This document shows positions 21,058 to 56,998 of a stretch of 64,000 nucleotides of DNA, one piece after another. Under the pieces are notes generated by a model. The model was given only the letters and a program-made list of their open reading frames with translations, was not told the origin of the DNA and did no database searches. The stretch is from positions 1 through 64,000 of the forward strand of contig CANLEQ010000001.1 of the NCBI GenBank assembly GCA_947489705.1, read 5' to 3'. This stretch comes from an uncultured Paracoccaceae bacterium. Its GTDB lineage: Bacteria; Pseudomonadota; Alphaproteobacteria; Rhodobacterales; Rhodobacteraceae. The translations under genes and the position numbers were made by a program. Numbering within the stretch: position 1 is the stretch's first letter; every line of letters begins with the position of its first letter.

Positions 21058-21197
21058 CCCATCGGCGCGATAAGGAACGTGTTCAGAAGAACAGACACCT
21101 CGAACGTGTCGCTTGTCAGAATGACATTCCTGGATGGCCGCGAAGGTCTCCGTACATATGGGCGCAAAAGCGCCGACACACGACAAGGAATACACTT

Positions 21198-22938: not shown

Positions 22939-23339
22939 GCGGCCTGGTCCTCAAGCTCGGCCCCAACGAACGCGTCCTGATCAACGGCGCGGTCATCGAG
23001 AACGGGAACCGGCGCAGCCGCCTCAACATCAAGACGCCGGGCGCCAACATCCTGCGCCTTCGCGACGCCATCCACCCCGCCCAGGCCCGCACGCCGGTTC
23101 GCCGGTTGTGCTATATCGCGCAGCTCATCCTGTCGGGAGACAAGACCCTTTCGGATGCGCGCGACGAACTGATGGCTGGCATCGATCAGCTCGTCGATGT
23201 CCTCAAGGACAGCGACAGCCGGATCGCGCTCGCCGACGCCAAGGCCGCGATCCAGCAGGGTCAGGCGTATTACATCATGAAATCCCTGCGCAAGCTCCTC
23301 CCCCTGGAAGAGCGCCTTCTGGGAGTGGCCGCAGAATGA
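22935..23339 (+). CDS. flbT: Flagellin mRNA translational repressor FlbT
   Basis: 134-residue alphaproteobacterial protein that in Caulobacter binds the flagellin mRNA leader and lowers its translation until the hook is built. It begins MSGLVLKLGPNERVLINGAVIENG, the usual FlbT start (24 residues from 22935), then has RRLCYIAQLILSGD and QGQAYYIMKSLRKLLPLEE. It overlaps flaF by 4 bp at its start and the DUF1217 gene by 4 bp at its end, so the three genes are coupled. Confidence 0.94.
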   Translation: MSGLVLKLGPNERVLINGAVIENGNRRSRLNIKTPGANILRLRDAIHPAQARTPVRRLCYIAQLILSGDKTLSDARDELMAGIDQLVDVLKDSDSRIALADAKAAIQQGQAYYIMKSLRKLLPLEERLLGVAAE

Positions 23340-24162: not shown

Positions 24163-25491
24163 TCACCGCTGCTCGGACTTGCGCGACAGGCACTTGGCCA
24201 ACGCCACGAAACTCTGGCGGACATCCTTGGTCTCGGATTGCGAGATGAACTTGTCGAGCAGCGGCCAGGCCTGGATGGCCGCGTCGATCGTCTTGTCGCT
24301 GCCCTTTGCATAGAGGCCCGCCTGGATCATCATCTCGGCCCGTTCGTAGGCGCCGATCAGGCGCCGCCCCTCCGCGATCAAGGTATTCTCCTGATCGTTC
24401 GCCGCCTGCGGCAGCGCCCGGCTCACCGATCGCAGAAGGTCGATCGCGGGGAACCTGCCCCGTTCGGCGATCTCGCGGGCGAGCACCACGTGACCGTCGA
24501 GCACACCGCGCAACGTATCGGCGACCGGCCCCTCCATGTCGGATCCCGCGACCAGCACGGTGAAGATCGCCGTGATGTCGCCGGCCTCGCCCACGCCGGG
24601 CCCGGCCCGTTCGCAAAGGCCGGTGATCAGCGGCACCAGCGATGGCGGATGCCCCTGGAGCGACGGCTGCTCGCCCTGGGTCAGGGCGATCTCGCGATGG
24701 GCGTCGGCGTAGCGCGTGACCGAATCGGTCAGCAGCAGCACCTGCTTGCCCTGGTCGCGGAAATGTTCCGCGATGCTCATGGCCGCAGGCGCGCATCGGC
24801 GGCGCAGCGAGGCGGACTGATCCGACGTCGCGGCGACGACGACGCAGCGTGCCATCCCCTCGGGGCCCAGCACGTGATCGGTGAATTCGCGCAGCTCCCG
24901 CCCCCGCTCGCCGACGAGGGCGATGACGATGATGTCGGCCTGCACGTTCTGCGCCAGCCCGGCCATCAGGGTCGACTTGCCGACGCCCGATCCGGCGAAA
25001 AGGCCGATGCGCTGACCGCGGACGAGCGGCAGGAAGGTGTTGAAGACGCAAAACCCGGTCGACAACCGCGCGCCCAGCGACCGCCGGGCCGCGGCATCGG
25101 GTGCCGCGCCGTCGATCGTTCGGGCCGCGACGCCGGGCAGGAGCGGCCGGCCGTCGAGCGGCCGACCGAGCGGATCGACGACCCGGCCCACCCACGAATC
25201 GTCGGGGCTGAGCGTGGCGGGCCCCAGATGCACGACCCGGTCGCCGATTCCCAGGCCGCGCGAGGTCGCGTCGGTCAGGACCGTGATTCCCTGCTCGTCG
25301 ATGCCGATGACCTCGCCGCCGATGGGCCCCGATGCACTGTCGAGCCGCACCAGATCGCCGATCGTCACCGATTTCGCGAGGTCGGCCACGCGCACCGCGC
25401 CGCCGACGATGGCCGAAACCCGGCCCATCGCCCGCGACATCCTCACGCGTTCGACGCCCGCCGCGACATTCTCGAAACCGCCCTGTGCCAT
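24163..25491 (-). CDS. fliI: Flagellum-specific ATP synthase FliI
   Basis: Hexameric F1-like ATPase that supplies substrates to the flagellar type III export gate. The 442-residue protein has Walker A AGSGVGKST near residue 164, then IALVGERGREL and a Walker B-type VLLLTDSVTRYADAHREIAL. The C-terminal GRFPAIDLLRSVSR is typical. It stands alone on the minus strand, divergent from flgB, rather than beside fliH and fliJ-like genes. Its promoter shares an 85-bp gap with the flgB operon. Confidence 0.96.
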   Translation of the reverse strand: MAQGGFENVAAGVERVRMSRAMGRVSAIVGGAVRVADLAKSVTIGDLVRLDSASGPIGGEVIGIDEQGITVLTDATSRGLGIGDRVVHLGPATLSPDDSWVGRVVDPLGRPLDGRPLLPGVAARTIDGAAPDAAARRSLGARLSTGFCVFNTFLPLVRGQRIGLFAGSGVGKSTLMAGLAQNVQADIIVIALVGERGRELREFTDHVLGPEGMARCVVVAATSDQSASLRRRCAPAAMSIAEHFRDQGKQVLLLTDSVTRYADAHREIALTQGEQPSLQGHPPSLVPLITGLCERAGPGVGEAGDITAIFTVLVAGSDMEGPVADTLRGVLDGHVVLAREIAERGRFPAIDLLRSVSRALPQAANDQENTLIAEGRRLIGAYERAEMMIQAGLYAKGSDKTIDAAIQAWPLLDKFISQSETKDVRQSFVALAKCLSRKSEQR

Positions 25492-25538
25492 CGTTCGATC
25501 CCTTCTGAACTCCGAAACCGTTTATAAAGGAATCGCCG

Positions 25539-25553
25539 TTAAACCTTCGTTGC
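25539..25553. promoter_or_regulatory. CtrA-like box between fliI and flgB
   Basis: TTAA (25539-25542), seven bases, TTGC (25550-25553). A GANTC site (25530) lies beside it. The first half matches the CtrA half-site; the second is degenerate. Confidence 0.35.
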
Positions 25554-25576
25554 AGATGAACGGAGGATCCGGGACC

Positions 25577-25960
25577 TTGATACAAACTGGCCTGATGCAG
25601 ATGGTACACGACGCCGCCAGCCACGCGGCCACCCGCCAATCTCATATCGCCCGCAACATAGCCAACGCCGACACGCCTGGCTACCGCGCCACGGATCTCA
25701 AGAGCTTTGCCGAAAGCCTCGACGAGATGAACACGACCTTCAAGGCGACCCGTGAGACGCATCTGGACCCGGCATCCGGAGGCTCCGGCCGGTTCGACGT
25801 GATCGAGCGGGCGTTCGAAACCTCGCCCAATGGCAACAACGTCTCCCTGGAACACGAGATGATGCAGTCGACCCAGGCCCAGCAGCAGCACGAGATGGCG
25901 CTGTCGATCTATTCCAGCGCGCGCGACATCCTGCGCTCGGCCCTCGGCCGCAACAACTGA
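25577..25960 (+). CDS. flgB: Flagellar basal-body rod protein FlgB
   Basis: Proximal rod subunit. I chose the TTG at 25577 because GGAGG (25562-25566) stands ten bases before it, giving (M)IQTGLMQMVHDAASHAATRQ and 127 residues; an ATG at 25556 has no such site. The rod/hook signature NIANADTPGYRATD is present. It heads an operon flgB-flgC-fliE-fliQ-flgF-flgG-flgA-flgH and a FliL-like gene, all on the plus strand with short gaps, and is divergent from fliI. Confidence 0.92.
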   Translation: MIQTGLMQMVHDAASHAATRQSHIARNIANADTPGYRATDLKSFAESLDEMNTTFKATRETHLDPASGGSGRFDVIERAFETSPNGNNVSLEHEMMQSTQAQQQHEMALSIYSSARDILRSALGRNN

Positions 25961-25974
25961 GGGAGGCCCGGCTC

Positions 25975-26355
25975 ATGACGGACATACTCGGATCGCTCGC
26001 GATCTCCTCCTCGGGAATGCAGGCGCAGGCCGAAAGGCTGCGCCACACGTCCGAGAACATCGCCAATGCCGACACGCCCGGCTACCGCCGCAAGACCGTG
26101 TCGTTCGACACGATCATGAACTCGGGCGGCGTCGAGACCGGACGCGTCAACCTCTCCCAGGCCGAGCTTCCGAAGATCTACGATCCCACCCACCCGATGG
26201 CCGACGATACCGGCAATTACGACGGCTCGAACGTCGACCTGATCGTGGAGATCGCGGATGCCCGCGAGGCCCAACGCTCCTACGAGGCCAATCTCAAGAT
26301 GTTCGACCAGGCCCGGAAGATGAACCAGGGCCTGCTCGACCTGCTCCGCCGCTAA
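25975..26355 (+). CDS. flgC: Flagellar basal-body rod protein FlgC
   Basis: Proximal rod subunit of 126 residues. The N-terminal signature is HTSENIANADTPGYRRKTV, and the C-terminal helix is NVDLIVEIADAREAQRSYEANLKMFDQ (about residues 83-109), the pattern shared by rod proteins that pack against FlgB. It follows flgB by 14 bp and precedes fliE. Confidence 0.95.
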   Translation: MTDILGSLAISSSGMQAQAERLRHTSENIANADTPGYRRKTVSFDTIMNSGGVETGRVNLSQAELPKIYDPTHPMADDTGNYDGSNVDLIVEIADAREAQRSYEANLKMFDQARKMNQGLLDLLRR

Positions 26356-30256: not shown

Positions 30257-30607
30257 TCAGCGGCCCCTGGCAGGGGCCTTCGACAGCTTGTCGAGCACGT
30301 CTGAGCGTCCGAACGCCTTGCGGGCCAGCCGCAGCGCCTCCTCGTGGGTCACCCGCAGGGCGGCCAGCTGGGCGAGCTTGCGGCGCAGCTGATCCTCGGT
30401 CCAGCCCATCCAGGCGACATCCGCCCCGCTCAGCCGCGCCGCGTCGAGCGCTCCGTCGGCCACGCGGCCGTCGCGCGCCGTGCGCAGACGCGCGATGTCG
30501 GCTTCGAGCCGCCCCATATGGGCCATGATCTTCTCGACCTTGGCAAGCTCGCGGTCCCGGACCAGACCGGCCAGCCCCACCATCTCGTTCAATCGATCGT
30601 TCTTCAT
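30257..30607 (-). CDS. FliJ-like coiled-coil flagellar protein
   Basis: 116-residue helical protein without a signal peptide. Heptad-rich stretches LAKVEKIMAHMGRLEADIARLRTA and WTEDQLRRKLAQLAALRVTHEEALRLARKAFGR cover most of it. Length and helix layout suit FliJ, the export-stalk protein that works with FliI and FlhA, but identity is too low to be sure. It overlaps flhB by 4 bp and is the last gene of the fliL-motA-flhA-fliR-flhB operon. No other fliJ candidate is in the window. Confidence 0.55.
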   Translation of the reverse strand: MKNDRLNEMVGLAGLVRDRELAKVEKIMAHMGRLEADIARLRTARDGRVADGALDAARLSGADVAWMGWTEDQLRRKLAQLAALRVTHEEALRLARKAFGRSDVLDKLSKAPARGR

Positions 30608-31686
30608 CGCTCGGCCGCCTTTCTGCGCATCTCTTCGGCGAACCGGATCGCCACCGCCACCGGGCCGAAATGCTCGGCTCGGATCTCCTCGCCGATCTCG
30701 ACGGTCGCGTGCATCGCCCGCGTGGTGGGCGGATCGCTGTGGATCGGAACGCCCGCCGCCTCGGCCGCCTCGCGGATCCGCCGCGCGACCTCGTCGACGC
30801 CCTTGGCCACGCAGACCGGCGCCCCCGGCGCGTCGCGCGACCATTTGAGCGCGACGGCGTAATGCGTGGGGTTGACCAGCACGACGGAAGCTTCGGGAAC
30901 CGCGGCCAGCATCGAGTTCATCGCGATCTCGTAGCCGCGCTGGCGGCGTTGCTGCTTGGCATGGGGGTCGCCCTCGCTCTGCTTGTGCTCGTCCTTCATG
31001 TCCTGGTGGGACATGCGGTTCTTGCGCATATGCTCGGCGCGCTGCCAGAAGAAGTCGATGCCGCCGATGCAGATCGAGATCAGCAGGACGAGCCCCATGA
31101 ACGAGACCGCGAGCTCCAGGAGCAATCCCACGACCGGCCCCGGCGACAGCGCCACAGAGGCCAGGATCACCGGCATCCTCGCACTCAGGAACCAGATCAG
31201 GATGACGGCATAGATCAGCAGCTTGACGGTCGATTTGCCGAATTCGAACAGGCCGTTGCGCCCGAACTTGTTCTTGAAGTTCGACAGGATCGAGATGCGG
31301 TTGAGCTTGGGCTGCAGCTTGCTGCCCGTGACCGTCAGCGCCTGCTGCGCCACCACCGACACGAGCGCCATGACCAGCGGCAGGAACGCCCAGGGCGCCA
31401 TCGACCCGCCCACGTCGAGCAGCAGTGTCCCGAGCAACGTCGCGCCGCCGCCGCGGTCGATTTCGGCGGCGAGCGGCACGGATTGCACCAGCATGGTCGA
31501 CAAGGTGGCCCCCATCGAGCTGAGCGAATACGCCCCCGCGCCGAAGGCCGCCAGCAGCAGGCCCGCATAGCTTCCGGTCGTGATGAGATCCGCCGATCGC
31601 GGGACCTCGCCCTTCTTGCGGGCATCGTCGAGCTTCTTCTGGCTGGCCTCGTGCTGCTTGTCGTCGTCGTCCTGCTCGTCGCTCAT
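30604..31686 (-). CDS. flhB: Flagellar export switch protein FlhB
   Basis: Membrane protein of 360 residues that sets substrate specificity of the export gate. Four membrane helices occupy about residues 35-215. The cytoplasmic domain has the self-cleavage motif in VVLVNPTHYAVALKW near residue 270. The N-terminus has the usual charged EASQKKLDDARKKGEVPRS. It overlaps fliR at its start by 4 bp and the FliJ-like gene at its end by 4 bp. Confidence 0.97.
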   Translation of the reverse strand: MSDEQDDDDKQHEASQKKLDDARKKGEVPRSADLITTGSYAGLLLAAFGAGAYSLSSMGATLSTMLVQSVPLAAEIDRGGGATLLGTLLLDVGGSMAPWAFLPLVMALVSVVAQQALTVTGSKLQPKLNRISILSNFKNKFGRNGLFEFGKSTVKLLIYAVILIWFLSARMPVILASVALSPGPVVGLLLELAVSFMGLVLLISICIGGIDFFWQRAEHMRKNRMSHQDMKDEHKQSEGDPHAKQQRRQRGYEIAMNSMLAAVPEASVVLVNPTHYAVALKWSRDAPGAPVCVAKGVDEVARRIREAAEAAGVPIHSDPPTTRAMHATVEIGEEIRAEHFGPVAVAIRFAEEMRRKAAER

Positions 31687-32456
31687 CGGGCGGCCCCCGT
31701 CGGATCGGCAAGGAACGCGTCCATCACCGAAAGCCAGACCTGCAGGACGAACGGCGTGGAGAGCGCGAGGACGATCAGACCGCCGGCGGTGATCGCCGGC
31801 GCCCCGACGAACGACACCATGAGCTGCGGCATCGCCCGGTTGATGACGCCGAGCGCCAGGTTGTAGATGAGGGACATGATCACGAACGGCGCCGCGAGCG
31901 TGAACCCCAGCGCAAACGCCTTGGCCGTCCGCTCGACCCCCCAGGACAGGAAATCCGAAGCCTCCGGCCAGCGCCCCGGCGGCAGCAGCTCGTAGGAATA
32001 GATGATGAGCTGCGCGACCTTGACGTGCAGCCCCGACATCACGGCGAGCGTCAGCCCGGCCAGGACCATCACATGGCCGATCGCCGGTTGCGGATCGATG
32101 GCCTGCCCGCCGAGGATCTGCGCCAGCGACACGCTCTGCGCCGCGATCGAACCCGCGATCGACAGCGCCATCACGAAGAGCCGCAGCGTCGCGCCGAGGG
32201 CGAGCCCGATCACCACCTCGGTCCCCCCTTCGGCAAAGAGGTTGTCGAGCGGCACATCAGGCAGGATCGGCACGATCGCCGGCGCGGTGACGAGGGTGAA
32301 GGCCAGCGCAAGGACCAGCTTGACCCGTGTCGGCACCATCCGCTCTCCGAACCCCGGCAGCAGCGCCATCACCGCGCCCACCCGTAGAAAGACGTAGAAT
32401 CCGGCCGTGAAATTCACCCCGACGAGTTCCGTCAGCGCGGTCAGGCCCTGGATCAT
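31683..32456 (-). CDS. fliR: Flagellar export gate protein FliR
   Basis: 257-residue membrane protein of the FliPQR gate. The start at 32456 gives MIQGLTALTELVGVNF. It has about six hydrophobic segments and the conserved MALLPGFGERMVPTRVKLVLALA and AGSIAAQSVSLAQI regions. It overlaps flhA by 4 bp upstream and flhB by 4 bp downstream, so FlhA, FliR and FlhB are made from one coupled message. Confidence 0.96.
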   Translation of the reverse strand: MIQGLTALTELVGVNFTAGFYVFLRVGAVMALLPGFGERMVPTRVKLVLALAFTLVTAPAIVPILPDVPLDNLFAEGGTEVVIGLALGATLRLFVMALSIAGSIAAQSVSLAQILGGQAIDPQPAIGHVMVLAGLTLAVMSGLHVKVAQLIIYSYELLPPGRWPEASDFLSWGVERTAKAFALGFTLAAPFVIMSLIYNLALGVINRAMPQLMVSFVGAPAITAGGLIVLALSTPFVLQVWLSVMDAFLADPTGAAR

Positions 32457-34534
32457 GCGGCCACGACGCCGACGAGCGCCGGCTGCGAATCGGTTCCGAG
32501 CTCCTCGAAGCTCAGGACGGGGTTGGCGATGCCGCGCGCCGACAGGACCATCCGGAGGAACCGGCGCCGGCGCGACGACGTGACGACAGCCGCGAAGACG
32601 CCCTCGCTCGACACCTCGCCCAGCCGCTCGGCCGCGTTCCTCGCAAGCCGGTTGAAATCGTCGGGCGGCAGCGCGACGTTCATGCCGGTCTCGTCGCCGT
32701 CGAGGTGATGCGCCGCGAAGACCTGCTCCCATTCGGGCGCGAGCTGCACGAGCGGGATGGTGCCGTCGTCGCGCTTGAGTTCGGCCACCATCTGGAAGCC
32801 CAGCCTCTGGCGCACGGCCTCGCAGATGCCTTCGGTGGTCGCGTTGCCCCCCCGGCTGGCCGCGATCGTCTCGAGGATCAGCGGCAGGTTGCGGATCGAC
32901 ACGCGCTCTTCGAGCAGAAGACGCAGCACCGCCAGCAGAAGCTCCATCGGCACCTTGTCGGGGATCAGGCTGTCGACCAGCTTGCGGTTGGCCTGCGCGC
33001 GGTTGGCGTCGCTCAGTTCCACGAATTCGTCCAGCAGCCGGCGCAGCGCCTTCAGCGTCAGCAGCCGCGGGAAATCCCGCTTGATGACTTCGAGCAGATG
33101 CGTCGCGAGAACCTCGGGCGCCGTCACGATGGTCACGCCGGACATGGCGAGGTCGTCCTGGTTGCCCGCGTCGAGCCACCGGGCCGGGGCCCCGTAGACC
33201 GGTTCGCTCACGTCGCTGCCGGCGGGCAGATCCGGGATACCGTCCGAAAGCAGCGCCAGGACCTGATTGGGGCGCAGGCGGTCGCGCACCCGCTCCACGC
33301 CCTGGATGCGGATGATGTAGGTTCCGTCGGACAGCGACGCGTCGTCGGTCAGCCGGATCTCGGGCAGGATCAGGCCGTAGCGTGCGGCGACATGCTGGCG
33401 CATGTTGCCGATCCGCGCGTCGAGCCCGCTCGCCGGGTCGAGCACCATCGGCACGAGGTCGGCCGCGAATTCGAGGTGAATATCGTCGAGATCGAGGATG
33501 TCGCCCATGCGCGGCTTCGCGGGGCCGGCCTCGTCGGAGGGCGTGGCGAGGGCCGTCTCCTCGGCGGGGGGCCGCTTCGACGCGCGCCAGCCCGCATAGC
33601 CGAGCGCCATCGCGCCCAGCATGAAGGGCACGAACGGCAAACCCGGCACCAGCGCGAAGAGCCCCATCAGGACCGCGACCGTGATCAGCGCCGAGGGATG
33701 CTTGCTGAGCTGGCTGAACATGGCCAGATCGGTCGATCCCGTCGACCCGCCGCGTGCGAGCAGCAGCGCCGAGGCGATCGAGATGATGACCGCGGGGATC
33801 TGCGTGACCAGCCCGTCGCCCACGGTCAGGATCGCGTAGGTCTCGAACGCGGTGCCGATCGGCATGCCGTGGATGGTGATCCCGATGATCAGCCCCATGA
33901 CGAGGTTCAGCATCGTGATCATCAGGCCGGCGACGGCATCGCCCTTGACGAATTTCGACGCCCCGTCGAGCGATCCGAAGAACGTGGTCTCCTGCTGCTC
34001 GGTCTCGCGGCGGTGCTTGGCCTCGGCATGGTCGATGGCCCCCGCGCTCATGTCGGCGTCGATGGCGAGCTGCTTGCCGGGCATCGCGTCGAGCGCGAAC
34101 CGCGCGCCCACCTCGGCCATCCGCGCGGCGCCCTTGGTGATGACGATGAAGTTGACGATCAGCAGCACGCCGAAGACCACAAGCCCGATGAGAAGGCTGC
34201 CGCCCATCACGAAGAGCGCGAAGCCCTCGATCACCTGCCCCGCGGCCCCGATGCCGGTATGGCCCTCGCCGATGATGAGCTTGGTCGACGACACGTTGAG
34301 CGACAGCCGCAGCATCAGCGAGGCCAGCAGGATCGTCGGGAACGCCGAGAAGTCGAGCGGCCGCTCGATGAAGAGCGTGGTGGTGAACATCAGGATGGCG
34401 ATGCCGAACGATGCGGCAAGGCCCACGTCCAGCACCCAGGACGGCACGGGCAGGATCATCATGACGATGACCGCCATCAGTGCCAGCGCGAGCAGGATCG
34501 TGGGCTGGAACAGGGTCTGCAGCGAGATTTTCAT
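32453..34534 (-). CDS. flhA: Flagellar export gate protein FlhA
   Basis: 693-residue export gate subunit with about eight membrane helices in the first half and a large cytoplasmic ring-forming half. The start at 34534 (MKISLQTLFQPTILLALALM) is the normal one. The conserved FHIPEP-type loop region is seen as LMLRLSLNVSSTKLIIGEGHTG and VITKGAARMAEVGARFALDAMPGKQLAIDAD (about residues 140-170). It is preceded by a 45-codon ORF whose stop overlaps its ATG (ATGA). Confidence 0.97.
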   Translation of the reverse strand: MKISLQTLFQPTILLALALMAVIVMMILPVPSWVLDVGLAASFGIAILMFTTTLFIERPLDFSAFPTILLASLMLRLSLNVSSTKLIIGEGHTGIGAAGQVIEGFALFVMGGSLLIGLVVFGVLLIVNFIVITKGAARMAEVGARFALDAMPGKQLAIDADMSAGAIDHAEAKHRRETEQQETTFFGSLDGASKFVKGDAVAGLMITMLNLVMGLIIGITIHGMPIGTAFETYAILTVGDGLVTQIPAVIISIASALLLARGGSTGSTDLAMFSQLSKHPSALITVAVLMGLFALVPGLPFVPFMLGAMALGYAGWRASKRPPAEETALATPSDEAGPAKPRMGDILDLDDIHLEFAADLVPMVLDPASGLDARIGNMRQHVAARYGLILPEIRLTDDASLSDGTYIIRIQGVERVRDRLRPNQVLALLSDGIPDLPAGSDVSEPVYGAPARWLDAGNQDDLAMSGVTIVTAPEVLATHLLEVIKRDFPRLLTLKALRRLLDEFVELSDANRAQANRKLVDSLIPDKVPMELLLAVLRLLLEERVSIRNLPLILETIAASRGGNATTEGICEAVRQRLGFQMVAELKRDDGTIPLVQLAPEWEQVFAAHHLDGDETGMNVALPPDDFNRLARNAAERLGEVSSEGVFAAVVTSSRRRRFLRMVLSARGIANPVLSFEELGTDSQPALVGVVAA

Positions 34535-34668
34535 GCCCGCGCCCCCGGAGCGGATCCGGCCGGCGCGGACAGCACCTCTCCAAAGCCCGGGGCGGCCGAC
34601 CGGCACCGCCGGTCGCGGCCCGCAGCGGGGCCTGCCGCAACGGCCAGGGGCTTCGCGTTCACGCGCAT
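34531..34668 (-). CDS. Small ORF translationally coupled to flhA
   Basis: 45 codons, beginning MRVNAKPLAVAAGPAAGRD and rich in Ala, Arg and Gly. An AAGGAG ribosome-binding site stands seven bases before the ATG, better than the site directly in front of flhA, and its TGA overlaps the flhA ATG. I recognise no family. It might be a coupling leader that sets flhA translation, or a small flagellar protein; the internal GFGEVLSAPA segment faintly recalls export substrates. No signal peptide or membrane helix is evident. Confidence 0.5.
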   Translation of the reverse strand: MRVNAKPLAVAAGPAAGRDRRCRSAAPGFGEVLSAPAGSAPGARA

Positions 34669-34720
34669 GGACAGCTCCTTCTGAAGCTCGGGATTTCGTC
34701 CGTTTGCTACGCCCAAGCCC

Positions 34721-34735
34721 TTACCAAAGCGTTGC
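34721..34735. promoter_or_regulatory. CtrA-like box upstream of the flhA small ORF
   Basis: TTAC (34721-34724), seven bases, TTGC (34732-34735), with a GANTC site at 34737. It lies in the 78-bp gap before the small ORF and flhA and suggests an internal promoter there. Confidence 0.35.
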
Positions 34736-34746
34736 CGAATCAGGGC

Positions 34747-36768
34747 TCATTCGGACAAAAGTTGATCGAGCTCGGCGCGCAGATCCGCCGTGCCCGAGAT
34801 CAGGTCCATCGCCCTCGACACTTCGGGGCTCGGCCCCGGCAACAGCGCCGGCGGCGCATCGTCGGAGCCGGTTTCGTCCTGCGGGGCCGGCTCCTCGGCG
34901 ACCAGGCGCGACCGCACGGCCTCGACCTCGTCGCCCTCGAGCCCCGCAAGATAGGACCTCGCGACATCGGCCTTGCCGGCATCCGAGGCGATCTCGGCGC
35001 GCAGGATCCGCTCGGGGGGCGTGGGAATGTCGCGCGACGCGTCGATCACCGTCTCGGCCTGTTTCCACAGGCTCTGCTCCCGCAATCTGCGCGCGATGCC
35101 GAGCCGGATCTCCGGATCCTCGATGGGCCGCTCGACGAGCGGCACGGCCAGCCGCAGGAACTCCGCGTCGCCCTCGCTCTCGAGGACCTGCGCGAAGAGC
35201 TCGCGCTCGACCTCCTCGAACGGCCCGCGCGAGACGCGGCGCAGCCGGTCGAGCTCGGCGAAGGCCGCGGGGATGGCCGGCCGCGCGGCGATCGCCCGCA
35301 GCGTCGCGCGTTCGAGCTCGGCTCGCGCGGGATCCGCCGTCTCGAAGCTGAGCGCCAAGGCCTGATCGGTGGTCTCGACCGGCACCGCCTCGCCGCGCTC
35401 CAGCATCGAGGAGATGAGGAACGTCATCGCCTCGGCCGCGCGCGGCAACCGCTCCTCGACCACCGCCTCGAGACCGGCCTGGGAGGCCGCATTGCCCTCG
35501 CCCTCCCCGATCTTGGCCGCGACGAACGCGTCCTCGGACGACGAGACCGCGGGCTCGCGGCTGTAATCGTTGCGGACGGTGCGGGCTTCCTCGTCGAGGC
35601 CCGCATCGACGAACCGCTCGGCCAGATGCGGCCCCACATACCCGCGCAGCGGCATCGGAAGATCGAGGAAGCGGCGGATCGCGATGCGCGGATCCTCCAT
35701 CACCGGGCCATCCTCGGCCAGAAAGGCGAGCAGCGCCGCGTTGCTGTCGCAATCGATCTGCGAGGCGAACGCCGCGCTGCCGAGGCCCGCATCCATCGCC
35801 CGGGCGATCTCGATCAGGACCTGCCGGTCGGGCGTGTCCGACGGGCTGTCGGCCAGAACGGCGCGCGCTTCCGCCCCGAAGGTCAGGAACAGATACGCCC
35901 GCGCGACGTCGGCATAGGTCTCGCCGCTCTTGCGGTCGACCTCGCTCATCAGCTCGGGCATGAGGCCGCGCAGCCGCGCGAACGGATCGGCCTCGTCCCC
36001 CCATGCCGCAAAGTCGAACTTCGACGCGGGAAGGCAGCCGTCATGCTCGTCGGGCAGCGCGGCGCCAGGCCAGTCGCGGTCGATCTGCGTCTCCACGCGC
36101 ATGTTGGGATAGGGCGAATCGCCCAGATCGGGCACGAGCGGCGCCTCCTCCTCCCGCGCGACCGGTGCCGGCGGCGTCTCCGGCGCCCGTCCCGGCCGCA
36201 CCGGCACGTCGACGAGCCCCTGCGACGCGCCCCGGGCGAGCTGTTCGGTCATGGTCTTTCTGGCGGCCGTCAGGATCTCCGTGTTCTGGCGGCTCGCCTC
36301 GGCCGGATCGAGCGCCCGGCTGAGCGGTCCCGGCAAAAGCGCCGGCGGCTCCGGGAGCCGCAACGGATTGTCGGGGAAGAGCGCCGCACGCTCGGGCGCC
36401 GGGGCCGGGGCGCCGTCCGCCTCGCTGACGTCGATCACCACGCTGCCCGCGGCATTCTGGAAGGTGTCGATGTCGCACGCACAGCCGAGGGTCACGACCA
36501 GATCGCCGTTCCCGCCCGCCTCGATCCGGGCGACCCGCTCGCGCGAGATCCGGGTGAAGGCCTGGCTAAGGTCGTAGCCCGCCGCACCAGGCGCGGAGAG
36601 ACGGACGGTCGCCGCCTCCCTGTCGACGCTCCAGTCGGCACCCCGCGGAAGATCGACGGCGATGCGCGTGAAATCGCCATGTTCGCCGGTGCGCACCAGC
36701 GTCGATTGGGCATGTGCGGTCCCGAGCGGCAGACCGAGCGCCAGAAGGCTTGCGGCAAGCAGTTTCAT
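34747..36768 (-). CDS. Large periplasmic protein of the motor operon, function unknown
   Basis: 673-residue protein with a signal peptide (MKLLAASLLALGLPLGTAHA). The first 120 residues after it look like a small beta-rich domain (TLVRTGEHGDFTRIAVDLPRG, then VARIEAGGNGDLVVTLG), reminiscent of an AMIN-type domain. A Pro/Ala-rich linker follows. The rest is helical and acidic, with repeating A-x-x-L patterns that suggest TPR-like or other solenoid repeats, such as RLGIARRLREQSLWKQAETVI. The start overlaps motA's stop by 4 bp. Context implies a role around the motor or rod, but I recognise no characterised family. Confidence 0.7.
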   Translation of the reverse strand: MKLLAASLLALGLPLGTAHAQSTLVRTGEHGDFTRIAVDLPRGADWSVDREAATVRLSAPGAAGYDLSQAFTRISRERVARIEAGGNGDLVVTLGCACDIDTFQNAAGSVVIDVSEADGAPAPAPERAALFPDNPLRLPEPPALLPGPLSRALDPAEASRQNTEILTAARKTMTEQLARGASQGLVDVPVRPGRAPETPPAPVAREEEAPLVPDLGDSPYPNMRVETQIDRDWPGAALPDEHDGCLPASKFDFAAWGDEADPFARLRGLMPELMSEVDRKSGETYADVARAYLFLTFGAEARAVLADSPSDTPDRQVLIEIARAMDAGLGSAAFASQIDCDSNAALLAFLAEDGPVMEDPRIAIRRFLDLPMPLRGYVGPHLAERFVDAGLDEEARTVRNDYSREPAVSSSEDAFVAAKIGEGEGNAASQAGLEAVVEERLPRAAEAMTFLISSMLERGEAVPVETTDQALALSFETADPARAELERATLRAIAARPAIPAAFAELDRLRRVSRGPFEEVERELFAQVLESEGDAEFLRLAVPLVERPIEDPEIRLGIARRLREQSLWKQAETVIDASRDIPTPPERILRAEIASDAGKADVARSYLAGLEGDEVEAVRSRLVAEEPAPQDETGSDDAPPALLPGPSPEVSRAMDLISGTADLRAELDQLLSE

Positions 36769-37658: not shown

Positions 37659-38264
37659 TCAGCCGTCGTTGCCCGGCTTCGCATTGCGGCCGGCGATCAT
37701 CACACTGATGGAATAGGCGGTTTGCGGGTCGAGCCCGGCCATGACCTCGGCCGCGGCCTCCGGGCGCATGCGGCTTAGGAAACCCGCGGCGAAGGCCGGC
37801 GCCATCTCGGAAAAGAGGCGCGCGGCCTCCGCGGGCTTCATGCTCTCGTAGACCGAGGTGAGCCGCGCGAGGTCGCTCTCGGAGGCCTCCTCGGCCAGCT
37901 TGAGCATCTTCGCCAGATCGTCCTCCGCCGCCGCGAGGTCGTCCATCTGCGCGCGGATGCGCGTCTCGACTTCGCCCAGACGGGTCTCGCGGTCGGCCAG
38001 GCGGTCCTCCCTCTCGTCGAGTTGCGCCTCGCGTTCCTTGAGCGCCTCGAGAATCACGGCGACCTCGTCCTGCCCGGCGGGTTCGGTCTCGGACGTCGCG
38101 GTCGAGGCGGTGGCCGCGATCGCCCCGAGCTCGCGGACGATGGCATTGCCGGTGCCGTCGCCGAGCCGGACGAGGCCCGACGCGGTCAGAAGCCCCGCGA
38201 GAAGCGGCAGGGCCCCGATACCGGCACGGCGGAGGCGACGGGTCATCTTGCGGCGTGCCATCAC
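37659..38264 (-). CDS. MotE/MgtE-N-type flagellar motor protein
   Basis: 201-residue protein with one N-terminal hydrophobic segment (GIGALPLLAGLLTASGLVRLG) and a long coiled coil (EALKEREAQLDEREDRLADRETRLGEVE, about residues 72-99). The C-terminal MgtE-N-like domain reads VYESMKPAEAARLFSEMAPAFAAGFLSRM. This layout matches MotE, the periplasmic chaperone first described in rhizobia that protects motor protein MotC. No motC is evident; the large periplasmic protein downstream could be its partner (inference). It overlaps the upstream gene by 4 bp. Confidence 0.75.
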   Translation of the reverse strand: MMARRKMTRRLRRAGIGALPLLAGLLTASGLVRLGDGTGNAIVRELGAIAATASTATSETEPAGQDEVAVILEALKEREAQLDEREDRLADRETRLGEVETRIRAQMDDLAAAEDDLAKMLKLAEEASESDLARLTSVYESMKPAEAARLFSEMAPAFAAGFLSRMRPEAAAEVMAGLDPQTAYSISVMIAGRNAKPGNDG

Positions 38265-39352: not shown

Positions 39353-39415
39353 GTCCGACCGATCAGATTGTGCCTCGAGACAGGGCAGAAGCCCGAGGAT
39401 GACAGGAGGTCGGTC

Positions 39416-42695: not shown

Positions 42696-43154
42696 TCAGC
42701 TTCCGCCGGAGCCTTCGGCGTCGGGCCCGATATCCGCGAGGAAGGCCGCGAGGTTCAGGGCATCCTCCTCGCTCCGCACGCGATAGGTCATCTTGCCGCG
42801 CGCCCGGTCGTTGTCGAGATATTCCTGCAGGAAGCCCGTCGGGTCCTGAACATAGGCCACGAAGCTCTCCTCGTCCCAGACGAGGCCCTGCTCGCCCGCT
42901 TCGACAATGCTCTCGCCGTAGCGGAAATCCTCCGTTCCGGCTTGCCGTCCGATCACACCGTAGAGGTTCGGCCCCTGCCGTCCGTTCCGACCGGCCAGCG
43001 TCTCGCCTTCCTCGTTGGTGACGACGTGGCACGTGGCGCATTGCCGGAACGCGTCTTCGCCTGCGGCGGCATCGCCGGACATTTCGTGCTCGGCCGCGAA
43101 AGCCGGCAGGGCGACAACCGCGAAGGCCGCAAGGATGAAATTGATAGGCTTCAT
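42696..43154 (-). CDS. cycA: Cytochrome c2-type class I cytochrome
   Basis: Small soluble periplasmic haem protein that can shuttle electrons between the cytochrome bc1 complex and the photosynthetic reaction centre. The start at 43154 gives MKPINFILAAFAVVALPAFA as a signal peptide. The haem-binding site is CATCH near residue 38, and the distal methionine ligand is likely in ARGKMTYRV. The mature protein is about 132 residues. It is the last gene of the photosynthesis superoperon, next to hemA, as in other Roseobacter clusters. A purely respiratory role cannot be excluded. Confidence 0.88.
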   Translation of the reverse strand: MKPINFILAAFAVVALPAFAAEHEMSGDAAAGEDAFRQCATCHVVTNEEGETLAGRNGRQGPNLYGVIGRQAGTEDFRYGESIVEAGEQGLVWDEESFVAYVQDPTGFLQEYLDNDRARGKMTYRVRSEEDALNLAAFLADIGPDAEGSGGS

Positions 43155-43243
43155 TTTTTCTCTCCCAGAGATCGTGGAATCGTTCGCACAACCCGACATT
43201 ATGACAATAGTCCCTCCGCGCCCCCTGACAAGCGTCGAACCCG

Positions 43244-44455
43244 TCACGCCACCTGCCGCGACAGGGCGCACTGGCTCCAGAGGCCGTTCAGCGCAGCGAC
43301 CAGATGGTCGATATCCGCATCGCTATGGAGCGGCCCCGGCGTGAAGCGCAGCCGCTCCGTGCCCTTCGGGACGGTGGGATAGTTGATCGGCTGCACGTAG
43401 ATGCCCCAGTCGTTCATCAGGACGTCGCTGATCATCCGGCACTTGACCGGATCGCCGATCATCACGGGAATGATGTGGCTGGGATTGGGAAGATGCGGGA
43501 TCCCGAGCGCGTCGAGCTTGCCGCGCAGCTTCTCGACCTGGCGCTTCTGCGCCTCGCGTTCCGTCCGGCTCTGTTTCAGATGCGCGATCGACGTCCGCGC
43601 GGCCGCGGCCACGGCGGGCGGCAGGGCGGTCGTGAAGATGAACCCGCTCGAGAACGACCGGATGAAATCGCACAGCGCCTTCGTGCCCGTGATGTACCCC
43701 CCGAAACAGCCGAATGCCTTGCCGAGCGTGCCTTCGATGATGTCGATGCGGTCCATCAGGCCCTCGCGTTCGGCGACGCCGCCGCCGCGGGGCCCGTACA
43801 TGCCGACCGCATGGACCTCGTCGAGATAGGTCATCGCGCCGTGCCGCTCGGCGACTTCGATGATCTCGGCCAAAGGCGCGATGTCGCCGTCCATCGAATA
43901 GACGCTCTCGAAGGCGACGATCTTAGGCCGGTCGCCGCAGGCCGCGAGCTTCCGGTCGAGATCCCTGGGATCGTTGTGCTTCCAGATCACCTTGTCGGCC
44001 CGCGAATGGCGGATCCCCTCGATCATCGAGGCGTGGTTGAGCGCATCCGACAGGATCACCGCGTTCGGGATGCGGGCCCCCAGGGTGCCGAGCGCGGCCC
44101 AGTTCGACACGTAGCCCGACGAGAAGAGCAGCGCGTCGTCCTTGCCGTGCAGATCCGCAAGCTCGGCCTCGAGGGCGATGTGGTGATGCGCCGTGCCCGA
44201 GATGTTGCGCGTGCCCCCGGCCCCCGTGCCGCAGGCCCGCGTCGTATCGACCATCGCGGCCACCACGTCGGGATGCTGGCTCATCCCCAGATAGTCGTTC
44301 GAACACCAGACCGTCACGTCGCGCCGCCCTTCGGGGCCGTGGTTCGTGACCCTCGGAAACTCGCCGCAGCGCCGTTCGAGATCGGCGAAGATTCGATAAT
44401 TGCCCTCGTTCTTGAGCGCGTCGATCTGGTCCTGGAAGAGGGTGTCAAAATCCAT
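43244..44455 (-). CDS. hemA: 5-aminolevulinate synthase
   Basis: PLP enzyme that condenses glycine and succinyl-CoA to 5-aminolevulinate, the first step of tetrapyrrole synthesis (Shemin path). The 403-residue protein has [35 protein letters not shown] and the PLP-lysine segment [14 protein letters not shown]. Its place inside the photosynthesis cluster suggests it is the copy that supplies bacteriochlorophyll; a second housekeeping copy may exist elsewhere. It overlaps puhE by 11 bp. Confidence 0.97.
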
Positions 44456-45245
44456 GGGTTTTCTCGCTTTGCGGCAGGTCGTCCTTGAGGGTCGGCGCGG
44501 GGATCATCCACCGCCAGAGTTTCGCGTCGGGCAGCGGCAGCACCATCAGCCAATGCTCCAGCAACGCCAGCCCGGTCAGCGTCGCCAGAAGGGCGAACTG
44601 GACGTCGCCGGTGAACATCAGCCGCTCGATCCAGCAAAAGACAGCCAGCGTCAGAACGAGGATCGAGACGGGAAAGAGCCAGCCGACCGGCCCTTGCCGG
44701 AAATAGCTCGGCAGATGGGCGAGGGGTGCCGGCAGGAATTCCGTGTTGATGCGCGGCACGCCCAGGAAGATGTTGAGCTTGGCCGAGATGCGCGCGACGA
44801 ACAGCACCCCATAGGTCCAGAAGGCGAGCGTGTTGGCCGATCCCCAGACCGCCAATCCCAGAAAGACGAGCCCGAGCGCCAGGAGAGTCTCGTGCCAGGC
44901 CACGGTCCGCCACGCCGCGCGGAACCGCTGACCCTCGGTCAGGCAGAACGGCAACGGTCCGCGATTGGGCCCGGTGACGATACCGGTGAGGAACGCAAGC
45001 TCGATCCAGCCCCAGATGGCCAGCGCCGAGAGGAACCCGCCGTAGAACGCCGCCGGCCCCTCCGCGTCGCGGGTCAGGATCGCCGCCACGATACCCGCAC
45101 CGAGCAGCGGCAGGCCCGCGAGCGCCACGCGGACATGCGCCCGGCCGCTCCGCCCATCGGCGCGCTTGACCGCCCACAGGATCGCGCCGGTGGAAAACCA
45201 CCAGACGAAAAGCGCGAACAGCGCGGCGATCCAGGGATTGGTCAA
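44445..45245 (-). CDS. puhE: Photosynthetic complex assembly protein PuhE
   Basis: 266-residue membrane protein with about seven hydrophobic segments, of the DUF3623/PuhE family linked to reaction centre and LH1 assembly in Rhodobacter. It starts with TTG at 45245 ([20 protein letters not shown]), preceded by AGGAGAG. Family blocks include [24 protein letters not shown] and [22 protein letters not shown]. It lies between acsF and hemA, the order known from Roseobacter clusters. Confidence 0.92.
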
Positions 45246-45312
45246 GCGTCTCTCCTCTCCGGTGGCCGGTCCCGTCGCGCCCGGGGTGTGCCCGGGGCGG
45301 CGGCCCGCCGTG

Positions 45313-46440
45313 TCAGTAGGCGGGCTCCATCCGCACGTTCTCGGGCACCTCGTTGCGTTTCACGGGCAGCGTGTAGAGGCTCGCGAAGGCCCAGGCGGCG
45401 GAGGCCCCCGCCGACACACGCCCGAGCAGTCCGCCGACGCCGCCGCGCTTCTTGGCTGCATCCATCGCGATGGCGGCGCGGTTCATCCGCTCGCAGCCGC
45501 GGCGGAACCGCGGATGCTCGATATCGAGCTCGACCGGAAAGACCTGCCGCGCGATCGCGTTGGTCTTGGCGAAGACCTCCATGTCGTACCAGTCGATATC
45601 GACGCCCAGCGCCTCGTGGAATTTCGGCCGCGCATGGTCGCGCACCCACATCGTCGAATAGACCGCCGTCAGGAAGAACCGGATCCAGAGCCGGTTGGGC
45701 AGGCTCTGGGTCAGCTTCGGGTCCGTCCGCATCAGCAGCGCGAAGGCCTCGCCGTGGCTGAACTCGTCGTTGCACCATTCCTTGAACCACTTGAAGATCG
45801 GGTGGAACCGGTGCTCAGGGTTCGCCTCCAGATGGCGATAGATCGTGATGTACCGGGCATAGCCGATCTTCTCGCTGAGATAGGTCGCGTAATAGATGAA
45901 TTTCGGCCGGAAATAGGTGTATTTCTTCTCCCGCGTGAGAAAGCCCAGATTGACCGCGACCCCCGCCTCGCGCAGCGCGTCGTTGATGAAGCCGGCATGC
46001 CGCGCCTCGTCGCGGCTCATGAAGCTGAAGAGCTCGCAGATATCGGGATTGTTGCCGCGCCGCTTCATCTCCTTGTAAAGGACGCAGCCCGAGAATTCCG
46101 CCGTGCAGGACGAGACCAGGAAATCGAGGAATTCGGCCTTGAGCTCGGGCTCCATCCCCTCCCAGTCGATCGCGTCCCAATCCTCGGTCTTGCGGAAATG
46201 GCCCTTGTTGGGGTCGGACTTCATCTGGGCGATGAGCTTGTCCCAATCTTCGCGCACGGGGCTCACATCCACGGCGTCGAGCTCGTCGAAATTCGTGGTA
46301 TAGAAGCGCGGCGTGAGGAGCGTGTTCTGCATCGCGAGATCGGTGGCGGCCTGACTGTCGAATTTCGACTGCGCCTGCTGGATCGCCAGCCCTTCCTCGA
46401 CCGTGGTCGCATCGGCGGTATGGGTCGCGTGGGCGTTCAT
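45313..46440 (-). CDS. acsF: Mg-protoporphyrin IX monomethyl ester oxidative cyclase (aerobic)
   Basis: Di-iron enzyme that forms ring E of bacteriochlorophyll using O2. The 375-residue protein has the ferritin-like iron-binding repeats: CTAEFSGCVLYKEMKRR, SFMSRDEARHAGFIND, EANPEHRFHPIFKWFKEW and CNDEFSHGEAFALL. Together these supply the expected Glu and His ligands. It overlaps the small gene upstream by 4 bp. Having AcsF in the cluster fits synthesis under oxygen; the anaerobic alternative bchE is not seen in the window. Confidence 0.97.
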   Translation of the reverse strand: MNAHATHTADATTVEEGLAIQQAQSKFDSQAATDLAMQNTLLTPRFYTTNFDELDAVDVSPVREDWDKLIAQMKSDPNKGHFRKTEDWDAIDWEGMEPELKAEFLDFLVSSCTAEFSGCVLYKEMKRRGNNPDICELFSFMSRDEARHAGFINDALREAGVAVNLGFLTREKKYTYFRPKFIYYATYLSEKIGYARYITIYRHLEANPEHRFHPIFKWFKEWCNDEFSHGEAFALLMRTDPKLTQSLPNRLWIRFFLTAVYSTMWVRDHARPKFHEALGVDIDWYDMEVFAKTNAIARQVFPVELDIEHPRFRRGCERMNRAAIAMDAAKKRGGVGGLLGRVSAGASAAWAFASLYTLPVKRNEVPENVRMEPAY

Positions 46441-46733
46441 GGCTTCACCTCGTCGGAAAAGGAAAACTCGCAGAGTTCCATGAACTCCAGATCGCCCGTC
46501 AGCCGGGTCCAGAGCCGCCCCAGCGTCGAGGCCCGCGTGATCGTGGCCATGCGCGCCTCGCGCACCTCCTCGCCCCAGCCCGCCATTATGGGCGCGCCGT
46601 GGACCAGGACGCTGTCGCCGGGGCCGATGACGCTCCCGTCGTCGAGCCTCACATGCGCGCTCAGCTCCTCGAACTTGTGGACGACCTCGACCGTGCAGGG
46701 CGCGGTTTCCGTGTGACGTGTCAGAAGTCCCAT
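46437..46733 (-). CDS. Small conserved protein of the photosynthesis cluster
   Basis: 98-residue soluble protein between puhC and acsF. It has a beta-rich start (CTVEVVHKFEELSAHVRLDDGSVIGPGDSVLVHG, about residues 13-46) and a short helical end. No cofactor motif or membrane segment is visible. A similar small ORF stands in this place in other Roseobacter photosynthesis clusters, so it is probably real and conserved, but I know no function. It overlaps acsF by 4 bp, so it may be needed in proportion to the cyclase. Confidence 0.75.
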   Translation of the reverse strand: MGLLTRHTETAPCTVEVVHKFEELSAHVRLDDGSVIGPGDSVLVHGAPIMAGWGEEVREARMATITRASTLGRLWTRLTGDLEFMELCEFSFSDEVKP

Positions 46734-46744
46734 GATGCAGCCTC

Positions 46745-47230
46745 TCAATTCTCGAAAAGTGCGTACCAGTATCGCGTATTGCCGGCCCCGAACGACGTCA
46801 GCTCGGTACTCCACCCCGTCGCGGGGTCCGACAGGACCAGCCGGCCGTTCGCCAAGCGTGACAGCGTGACGGGCGGATTGCCAGCGATGTCGTGCACGAC
46901 CCGCTTGCGCTGCAGCGCATCGTTGACGACCGCGATGAAGGCGCCGTTGTCGGTGTCGAGAAGGACGGTGCCGTCGGGCGCCACCGCGCTGACGGCGACG
47001 CCGTCGCCTTCGAGCACGAAGGTGCGCGCATCCACGACCTCGGCGACCGCCGGGCGACCCGACGGCGTACGGTCCGTGACCGACGCGTAGGTGGCAAGCC
47101 CGAGCGAGGCGAGCACCAGCGCCAGCATCGCGAACAACGCGCCCCTCGGGATCATGTCGCGGTCGCGCCGCTCCATCTCGCGGCGTTCGGCATCGTAGTA
47201 GAGGCCGCTTTCGATCCGGTTCGTCGCCAT
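46745..47230 (-). CDS. puhC: Photosynthetic complex assembly protein PuhC
   Basis: 161-residue assembly factor for reaction centre/LH1. The start at 47230 has a strong GGAAGGAGG before it. One membrane helix (GALFAMLALVLASLGLATYASV) near residue 29 leads to a periplasmic domain with RTFVLEGDGVAVSAVAPDGTVL. It follows puhB by 14 bp in the standard puhABC order. Confidence 0.92.
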   Translation of the reverse strand: MATNRIESGLYYDAERREMERRDRDMIPRGALFAMLALVLASLGLATYASVTDRTPSGRPAVAEVVDARTFVLEGDGVAVSAVAPDGTVLLDTDNGAFIAVVNDALQRKRVVHDIAGNPPVTLSRLANGRLVLSDPATGWSTELTSFGAGNTRYWYALFEN

Positions 47231-47244
47231 GACGGTCCTCCTTC

Positions 47245-47880
47245 CTATTCCGCGGCCAGGGCCATGGGTCGCGGACTGATTTCGGGCTGGCAGATGCTGG
47301 TCTCGACCGCCTCCGACAGGATCCGCGCGACGCGCTCGGCATCGGGGATGCACCGCATCGCGGGCTGCACCTGCTTCATGTGCCAGGGCCGGATATGCGG
47401 CCAGAGCACGAAATAGCTCAGCCTCGCCTCGCCCATCGTGGTGAACACGATCGTCCCCGTCCGCCCCGGCGAGGGCGCCATGTCGGCGCTGGCGATCCGC
47501 GCGAAGGGCAGGTTCAGCGTGATGGTCAGCGCGGCGCCGATCCGCATCGCCACCCGGCGGTTGGTGATGGTGTAGAGCGTCGCACGCGCCTGGATCATCG
47601 CGATCACCACGATGATGCCGCAGCTCACCGCCCCGAGAAGCAGGAACGGGATCGCCAGCGGCAGCGCCCCGGCCCATCCCATCGTGCCCGCCGAGGCCGC
47701 GACGCGCGCGCAGGCCAACAGCACGAAATATCCCGCGATCCAGGTAAGCCCCATCGACGCGCGGGCGAGCGCGAAGGTCGCGGGCCGCCCCTGCCAGAGG
47801 ATCTCCTCGCCCTGCGGCAGGGCCTCGGGCAGCCCCGGGACGGGTTCGAAGGCCAGATCGGGATCGTCGTCATGTGCCAT
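47245..47880 (-). CDS. puhB: Photosynthetic complex assembly protein PuhB
   Basis: 211-residue membrane protein required for normal reaction centre assembly. It has a cytoplasmic start with LPQGEEILWQGRPA, the mark of PH-like (bPH) membrane domains. Two to three hydrophobic segments follow, then ATLYTITNRRVAMRIGAALTITLNLPF. It sits between puhA and puhC. Confidence 0.93.
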   Translation of the reverse strand: MAHDDDPDLAFEPVPGLPEALPQGEEILWQGRPATFALARASMGLTWIAGYFVLLACARVAASAGTMGWAGALPLAIPFLLLGAVSCGIIVVIAMIQARATLYTITNRRVAMRIGAALTITLNLPFARIASADMAPSPGRTGTIVFTTMGEARLSYFVLWPHIRPWHMKQVQPAMRCIPDAERVARILSEAVETSICQPEISPRPMALAAE

Positions 47881-47917
47881 GGTCGGGTCTCCTCCGCCGG
47901 GGTCCGGCGCGTCCAGG

Positions 47918-48673: not shown

Positions 48674-48685
48674 GATGTGTTCCTC

Positions 48686-50113: not shown

Positions 50114-50858
50114 GCGACGTATTCCAGGCAGGCGGAGATGTAGAAGCTCGAATGGACCCGTTCGACCTCCGTCAGGCGGCCGTGGGCACCCGCGTCCCGG
50201 GCGGCGCGGACCAGCCGCGCGGTGCGCTGCGGCACCATCACCGGCGCGCGGTCGGCCCGCGGAAAGAGCCGCCCGGCCCCCCACATTCCCATCAAAAGCG
50301 GCGTACGCGGCGGTACGGTCAGGACGATCTTGCCGCCGGTCCGCGCCCCGAGCCTGGCCAGCGCCTGACCGATGTGATCGGCGTCGTAATAGATGAGGCT
50401 GTCCATCGCCACGACGTGGTCGAACGCGCCGAGGCCGTCGTCGAGCATGTCGCCCGCGCGGAACGTCACCCGGTCGCGATGCTCCGCCGGCAACCGGCGA
50501 CGGGCGAGATCGATCAGGGCGGGCGAGATGTCGATGCCCACCACCTCGGCCCCGCACGCGGCGAGCGCGGCGCTCATCTGACCCGCGCCGCAGCCCGCGT
50601 CGAGCACCCGCGCACCGGTCAGGTCCTGCGGAAGGCACGAAAGCATCACGTCGCGCATCCGGTCGCGGCCCGCGCGCACCGTCTGGCGAATGCGGCTGAC
50701 CGGCGCGTCGCTGGTCAGCCGTTCCCAGACCTGCGTCGCCGTCCGGTCGAAATAGGTCTCGACCCGCGCGCGTGTGGCCTCGTAGCGATCGGGCGCGGAA
50801 TGTTTCGCGCGCGAAACATTTTCCGGTACCTTCATCGCGAGGGGAGCGGCGCCGCGCA

Positions 50859-50859: not shown

Positions 50860-55429
<4,570 letters not shown>

Positions 55430-55440
<11 letters not shown>

Positions 55441-56959: not shown

Positions 56960-56974
56960 GGCCGGCCCCGCGCC

Positions 56975-56998
56975 GTGAGTATTTGGGGACAGATGAAG
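56975..56998 (-). repeat. Dispersed intergenic repeat, copy 3 (inverted)
   Basis: On the plus strand GAGTATTT, three variable bases, GACAGATGAAG. It lies in the 46-bp bchN-bchB gap, in the opposite orientation to copies 1 and 2. Confidence 0.55.

Follow-up and report, generated by a model that had tools for sequence, protein, structure and literature searches.

We identified a 45-codon open reading frame (ORF) directly upstream of flhA in the window, the whole 64,000-nucleotide stretch analysed here, which is probably a translationally coupled leader in the slot of a lost sltF gene, a frame whose translation matters and whose peptide does not. This reading draws on comparison of flhA loci among relatives: sltF, where present, ends close to the flhA start, a coupled leader recurs where sltF is missing, stop/start contexts typical of coupling are enriched at flhA, intermediates between the two states are found, and the flhA start is predicted to be harder to open than the leader start. 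The features discussed are collected in Table 1.

Table 1. Positions of the flagellar features considered in the window.
Feature	Position	Strand	Basis or remark
Putative leader ORF, coupled to flhA	34531..34668	minus	ATG, 45 codons, TGA
AAGGAG ribosome site of leader	34675..34680	minus	within hairpin 3' arm
ATGA overlap, leader stop / flhA start	34531..34534	minus	
flhA	32453..34534	minus	Pfam FHIPEP
fliR	31683..32456	minus	starts in ATGA overlap with flhA
flhB	30604..31686	minus	starts in ATGA overlap with fliR
673-aa gene, taken as CP4 of the fla1 cluster	34747..36768	minus	gene order, not sequence comparison
Predicted stem burying flhA G-rich ribosome site and start codon	34532..34572	minus	predicted fold, z = -2.91
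Conserved promoter box CAACGCTTTGGTAAGG, CtrA-like	34719..34734	minus	motif score
AGAA-loop hairpin AGCUUC-AGAA-GGAGCU over leader ribosome site	34673..34688	minus	recurrence, covariation
AGAA-loop hairpin GGGC-AGAA-GCCC before fliF	39383..39394	plus	
AGAA hairpin GUCCA-GAA-UGGAC holding fliE start codon	26383..26395	plus	
AGAA-loop hairpin 1, flagellin leader	21080..21093	plus	
AGAA-loop hairpin 2, flagellin leader	21114..21126	plus	
AAAA-loop hairpin GGCGC-AAAA-GCGCC, flagellin leader	21161..21174	plus	read from sequence; AAAA is the second-ranking loop
flbT, candidate hairpin reader	22944..23321	plus	domain match, E 1.2e-36

On the minus strand, the 673-aa gene is followed by a 78-base gap, the 45-codon ORF, flhA, fliR, and flhB. 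The ORF is read from 34668 down to 34531 (MRVNAKPLAV...PGARA, then TGA), its AAGGAG site stands six bases from the ATG, and it ends in an ATGA overlap with flhA; the ORF, its ribosome site, and the overlap had been described in the earlier note. The claim that flhA has no equally good ribosome site was right in one respect only. The best anti-Shine-Dalgarno (anti-SD) pairing energy is in fact stronger before flhA (-8.6 kcal/mol) than before the leader ATG (-7.6 kcal/mol; -9.1 kcal/mol for a GTG at leader codon 3). A predicted stem, however, takes in the G-rich site of flhA together with part of its start codon; the 66-nt fold of -34.9 kcal/mol was equalled in stability by two of 200 shuffles. 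Relatives have their in-frame starts clustered at the conserved N-terminus of FlhA, and an extension of the protein from an upstream in-frame GTG was rejected for this reason. The order of the genes matches motA, CP4, (sltF), flhA, fliR, and flhB of the fla1 cluster of Phaeobacter inhibens (PMC12363192), and the 673-aa gene is therefore taken as CP4.

Elsewhere in the window, the product of 37659-38264, a flagellar protein of the CP set, weakly matched the NCBIfam model of the collar protein FlbB (31.9 bits, well under the cut-off of 110). Photosynthesis-type genes lie beside the flagellar cluster at 42696-57136, a segment that holds a DUF3623 gene (44445-45245), a rubrerythrin-domain gene (45313-46440), a NifH-family gene (50859-51980), and a CobN/Mg-chelatase gene (51904-55458). 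Presumably, the names AcsF, PuhE, BchL, and BchH apply to these photosynthesis-type genes.

The product of sltF is a lytic transglycosylase. From 110 flhA loci, 105 distinct ones were compared, and an SltF-like gene precedes flhA in 75 of them (70 recognised by motif and 5 by tblastn), which leaves 30 loci without SltF. Relative to the flhA start, which was chosen by rule, SltF ends between -8 and +13 bases in 64 of the 70 loci, and the two genes overlap by 4 or 1 bases in 14 of the 70. A quick FlhA tree requires eight changes of the sltF label, at least six of them forced by well supported branches; sltF was lost several times independently while flhA was kept. Within the genus, SltF is retained before the orthologous flhA in three of 12 genomes (L003, L006, and L011), and an SltF query matches five of 14, namely these three together with G008 and G013, in both of which the match lies directly before a second, distant flhA. 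The query found no match in the window genome (E 1e-5). Relocation of SltF within that genome was also rejected, as eight of its ten SLT-domain matches, those that were fetched, score at most 37 bits to SltF, compared with at least 79.7 bits between SltFs. In G022, the flhA match on contig 3 (2540040-2542114) comes in two overlapping pieces, as if frameshifted or misassembled.

With regard to INTERMEDIATES, intermediates between sltF and a leader are found in L003 and L009. The SltF of L003 (minus strand, 3573-4139) ends in ATGA at flhA, has no match to Pfam SLT any more, and is without an eight-residue stretch including TETG, which we take to hold the catalytic glutamate; it is possibly a dead enzyme retained for coupling. 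The frame at locus L009, decayed and 151 codons long, has a good ribosome site, also ends in ATGA at flhA, and shows no similarity to SltF. The sister of L009 on the FlhA tree, L008, has a leader of 21 codons, and the leader start regions of L008 and L010 align with the start of L009 (z 4.9 and 4.5, respectively), suggesting that the slot, and probably also the start, was inherited. The window leader start compares with the sltF-slot starts of L003 and L009 at z 3.0 and 2.9, and its end with the ends of L003, L006, L011, and L009 at z -0.5, -1.6, 2.4, and -0.3. Leader tails gave no convincing alignment with sltF ends, so that a derivation is not detectable there; if leaders are viewed as internal deletions of sltF, the start side is supported in L008 and L010 and the tail is not.

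A coupled leader was defined as an ATG-initiated ORF of at least 15 codons with an anti-SD energy of -4 kcal/mol or lower, whose end falls from -6 to +16 relative to the flhA start. Such leaders are present in 20 of the 24 testable sltF-less loci, compared with a mean of 2.41 and a maximum of 7 in 200 rounds of shuffled gaps. These 24 were taken from the 30 sltF-less loci by leaving out L009 (decayed and long), L021 (46-base gap), and L014, L085, L100, and L103 (no CP4 end known); the misses are L076, L079 (31 codons, energy -3.5), L083, and L111, and no leader is found in L021 and L014 either. An NTGA or TRATG context occurs at the flhA start in 22 of the 30 sltF-less loci versus 15 of the 54 sltF loci with a positive gap. 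Opening energies were compared at 16 loci (15 of the 20 positives and L079), with the mRNA assumed to begin 32 bases upstream of the leader ORF. Opening costs more at flhA than at the leader start in 13 of them (medians 18.0 versus 13.4 kcal/mol, p = 0.006) and less in the other three.

These comparisons bear on one alternative, that the ORF arose by chance and flhA initiates independently on its own G-rich site. The pairing energy of that site is in its favour, as is the G+C-rich genome, in which a coupled ORF appears in 12.5% of shuffles of this gap (rate 0.125). The window gap alone is accordingly not significant, and significance attaches to the leader class, not to the window locus by itself. 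Chance would nevertheless have to account for the excess of leaders over the shuffled mean, for the enriched NTGA/TRATG contexts, and for an flhA start that is buried in a predicted stem and generally harder to open than its leader start, and we consider it unlikely.

Leaders listed in 17 loci (the 16 above and L078, whose leader is not coupled) range from 21 to 59 codons, and the peptide matches listed between them cover 4-13 residues, with no E value better than 0.018. In L002, the nearest relative, the leader has 31 codons and shares 11 identities with the window leader over 27 aligned residues. The earlier note had asked whether length and sequence are conserved in related genomes and whether the frame is disrupted in close ones; neither length nor sequence is retained, but a coupled frame is. 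The additional suggestion of that note, a small flagellar protein, is not supported. The G+C content of the leader by codon position (0.82/0.76/0.82, versus 0.69/0.44/0.93 for the flhA ORF) carries no codon-position signature, a Pfam and NCBIfam search of the peptide gave no match, and its only match in its own genome is itself. A real protein, perhaps a reduced SltF, would fit the good start signals and the weak similarity of the start region to the sltF-slot starts of L003 and L009, but we set it aside as very improbable in view of the absent peptide conservation, coding signature, and family match. Slightly less probable again is a sensing upstream ORF acting by attenuation or peptide stalling, which the stem at the end of so short an ORF might suggest, but peptide sequence and length vary freely, making a stalling sequence unlikely, and no terminator-like site was found in a search of 34200-35000.

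Translational coupling from the leader to flhA is thus the reading that we prefer, and it is well supported by comparison. Ribosomes on the leader would open the stem at the flhA start and re-start on flhA, and re-starting would continue on fliR and then flhB through the same ATGA overlaps. The proposal that reading the ORF may be required to translate flhA gains from the recurrence of this arrangement and from the position of the flhA start in a predicted stem. Several observations count against a coupled leader, including the four misses, the lack of a leader in L021 and L014, strong own flhA sites in L078 and L033 (-11.8 and -11.2 kcal/mol), the pairing energies in the window, the three loci with the opposite order of opening, leader tails that do not derive detectably from sltF, and the ordinary stability of the hairpin described below.

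Neither the loss of sltF nor an AGAA-loop hairpin over the leader ribosome site was mentioned in the earlier note. As an isolated fold, the window hairpin is no more stable than shuffles (z = -0.13), and the evidence for it is comparative. In the flhA operon, hairpins were counted within 150 bases after the CP4 stop in the 67 of 105 loci with a recognised CP4 end. An AGAA-loop hairpin of at least 4 bp is present in 32 of these 67, with 35 of 97 AGAA occurrences paired, compared with 2.5% of all tetramers. Similar hairpins are found upstream of fliF (16 of 30 loci; 16 of 43 occurrences versus 2.2% of all tetramers) and upstream of flagellin genes (17 of 30 loci; 20 of 42 occurrences versus 3.6%), and AGAA ranks first of the 256 loops in all three leader families. 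In 16 of 27 fliE loci, the start codon itself lies within the hairpin. Control regions rarely contain the element (flhA coding 1/105, fliF coding 0/30, flgC 1/28, fliL 2/30, and flaF 2/29).

The leaders of fliI (25491-25975 region; L174-L200), a gene of the same cluster, are without an AGAA hairpin (0 of 28, 2 of the 30 loci having no start in range), so fliI was rejected as an additional hairpin gene and the element does not stand at every flagellar promoter. The fliF ribosome site (39401-39411) can form a small hairpin, GAC-AGGAG-GTC, and AGGA comes second among the hairpin loops of fliF leaders (12 of 30). Distant flagellin genes in G008, G013, and G019, which belong to second systems (L112, L113, and L219-L222), have leaders with AGAA hairpins of at least 6 bp.

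Covariation was assessed by shuffling stem partners among all distinct AGAA occurrences (2000 rounds), with kinship uncorrected here as in the hairpin counts. With a loop of five bases, the flhA operon yields 23 four-base stems that are fully paired, no two of them alike (shuffled mean 2.5, maximum 8). For fliF, the same register yields 7 fully paired stems (mean 1.5, maximum 7), and 86 positions are paired (mean 64.7, maximum 82). When the loop is set at four bases, covariation is not significant in the flhA operon (6 versus 2.1, maximum 9) or in fliF (3 versus 1.4, maximum 7). It is not clearly significant in either register for flagellin (6 versus 1.7, maximum 6; 6 versus 3.4, maximum 9), where the stems vary little. 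The pattern applies to 17 of 27 fliE loci, and in these, codon 2 has a wobble base that tracks the base across the stem (9 G-C, 7 A-T, and 1 A-C; p = 0.0004, kinship uncorrected).

A hairpin of at least 4 bp lies over the start region of 12 of the 17 leaders; two of the five others have none listed. At this stem length, 14 of 41 loci with sltF and 18 of 26 without it have a hairpin, and at 3 bp, 33 of 41 and 23 of 26 do. Being common to both kinds of locus, the element predates the loss of sltF. Rfam gave no match to the window at gathering thresholds and, on closer inspection, no credible match to the flhA leader, the flagellin leader, or any of nine others.

A conserved box, CAACGCTTTGGTAAGG, stands upstream at 34734-34719 and scores 11.7 bits against a 16-bp motif (consensus TTACCATTTGTAAACC) that was derived from 67 related upstream regions with no prior pattern. 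The earlier note had placed a CtrA-like box just upstream of the ORF; a conserved box is indeed present, and its CtrA identity is one of resemblance only, to what we take to be the CtrA consensus, its left half being degenerate in the window. From box end to hairpin loop the distance is 23-72 nt in 30 loci, which puts the hairpin near the expected mRNA 5' end. This fits the five fla2 promoters of Rhodobacter sphaeroides, where transcription start and start codon are reported 12-33 bases apart (PMC6180460).

A regulator that reads the AGAA hairpin over the leader ribosome site would be able to set the whole export-gate operon. FlbT is the leading candidate, a step that we hold much less certain than the coupling. 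It has been proposed to bind the fliC leader, acting as a repressor in Caulobacter and as an activator in Brucella, by a mechanism that the passages concerned leave unresolved (PMC4347634), and its repression is described as exerted together with FljJ (PMC7591256). An element shared by the leader and the flagellin mRNAs is what a role of FlbT would explain.

A FlbT match was obtained in 38 of 115 genomes drawn from the Alphaproteobacteria (37 above the cut-off), and 64 of the 115 have a flagellin. Removal of too short, start-less, and identical sequences from 107 flagellin leaders left 97, from 59 genomes, of which 58 are outside the home family and nearly every one represents a different family; from one set of 19 stretches only L214, L216, and L217 entered, and L172 was not used. 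Hairpins with ARAA loops are present in the flagellin leaders of 19 of 31 genomes with FlbT versus 4 of 28 without (p = 0.0004, kinship uncorrected). The commonest loops in the 51 leaders of FlbT genomes are AGAA (15) and AAAA (11), the next reaching 4, and those in the 46 leaders of FlbT-less genomes are AGGA (9) and AAAA (5), with AGAA at 3. Compared with dinucleotide shuffles, ARAA hairpins occur in 23 of the 51 leaders with FlbT (mean 1.8, maximum 7) and in 6 of the 46 from FlbT-less genomes (mean 1.3, maximum 5). Hairpins whose NRAA loop begins with a base other than A are likewise raised with FlbT (13 versus 4.6, maximum 11) and not raised without it (4 versus 3.4). The four FlbT-less genomes with a hairpin are G064, G081, G091, and G134; G081 has a partial FlbT match where a contig ends, and the completeness of G134 is 84%.

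From this co-occurrence, we infer that FlbT may read the hairpin. In the fullest form of this idea, which we offer tentatively and think more likely wrong than right, ARAA-loop hairpins would be the FlbT recognition element in Alphaproteobacteria; here FlbT, alone or with a partner, would read early flagellar mRNAs as well, opening or closing the leader, setting the FlhA-FliR-FlhB gate, and tying flagellin supply to export capacity. The competing explanation, a hairpin that stabilises the mRNA 5' end or is the site of another factor, has to our mind about an even chance of being correct. It would suit the position near the expected mRNA 5' end, the freely varying stems, the 12 of 31 FlbT genomes with no ARAA hairpin in the leaders examined, and the excess of ARAA hairpins over shuffles in FlbT-less genomes too. 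The motility of a Phaeobacter flbT mutant (PMC12363192) points the same way, and under FlbT control would fit a repressor or fine-tuner rather than an essential activator. A plain stabiliser, however, should need no single loop, yet AGAA leads in three leader families; the element also occurs at the fliE start, inside an operon; and ARAA hairpins accompany FlbT across the genomes compared.

CsrA prefers GGA in hairpin loops. The element described here is alike in being a short hairpin with a fixed loop and a varying stem near a ribosome site, and differs in its ARAA loop from the GGA that CsrA reads in mRNA (PMC4894983); no kinship is claimed. FlbT control of flagellin mRNA, as covered in the passages of PMC4347634 and PMC7591256, has in common with our proposal an RNA-binding regulator of flagellar mRNA leaders, and flbT is present in the window cluster; the hairpin element and the early-gene targets are proposed here only. 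Short upstream frames whose translation serves a downstream gene are described for cbrX-cbrA of Pseudomonas putida (PMC6591292) and for bicistronic designs (PMC5995908). The leader would be a frame of the same kind; unlike them, it fills the slot of a lost gene, is found in several lineages in which it either arose or was retained, and begins within a hairpin common to other flagellar mRNAs. The fla1 cluster has the same gene order; of the five clusters taken as representative, two are reported to contain sltF, and one sltF insertion mutant is reported as immotile. For clusters without sltF, the excerpted passages of that paper mention neither a leader ORF nor a hairpin, and they make no mention of the polarity of the sltF insertion (PMC12363192). 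An open literature search at the level of titles and abstract beginnings, with the original FlbT papers outside its scope, found neither the hairpin nor the leader named. Coupled leaders and hairpin-reading regulators are known as such, and the leader in a lost-gene slot and the set of hairpins appear to be new.

An ARAA hairpin with a fixed loop and a freely varying stem, which goes with FlbT across alphaproteobacterial families, offers a concrete site to mutate. The leader suggests that an operon can lose a gene and yet keep the ribosome traffic that the gene supplied. Because sltF was lost repeatedly while flhA stayed, the immotility of the Phaeobacter sltF mutant may reflect lost flhA expression and not the missing enzyme.
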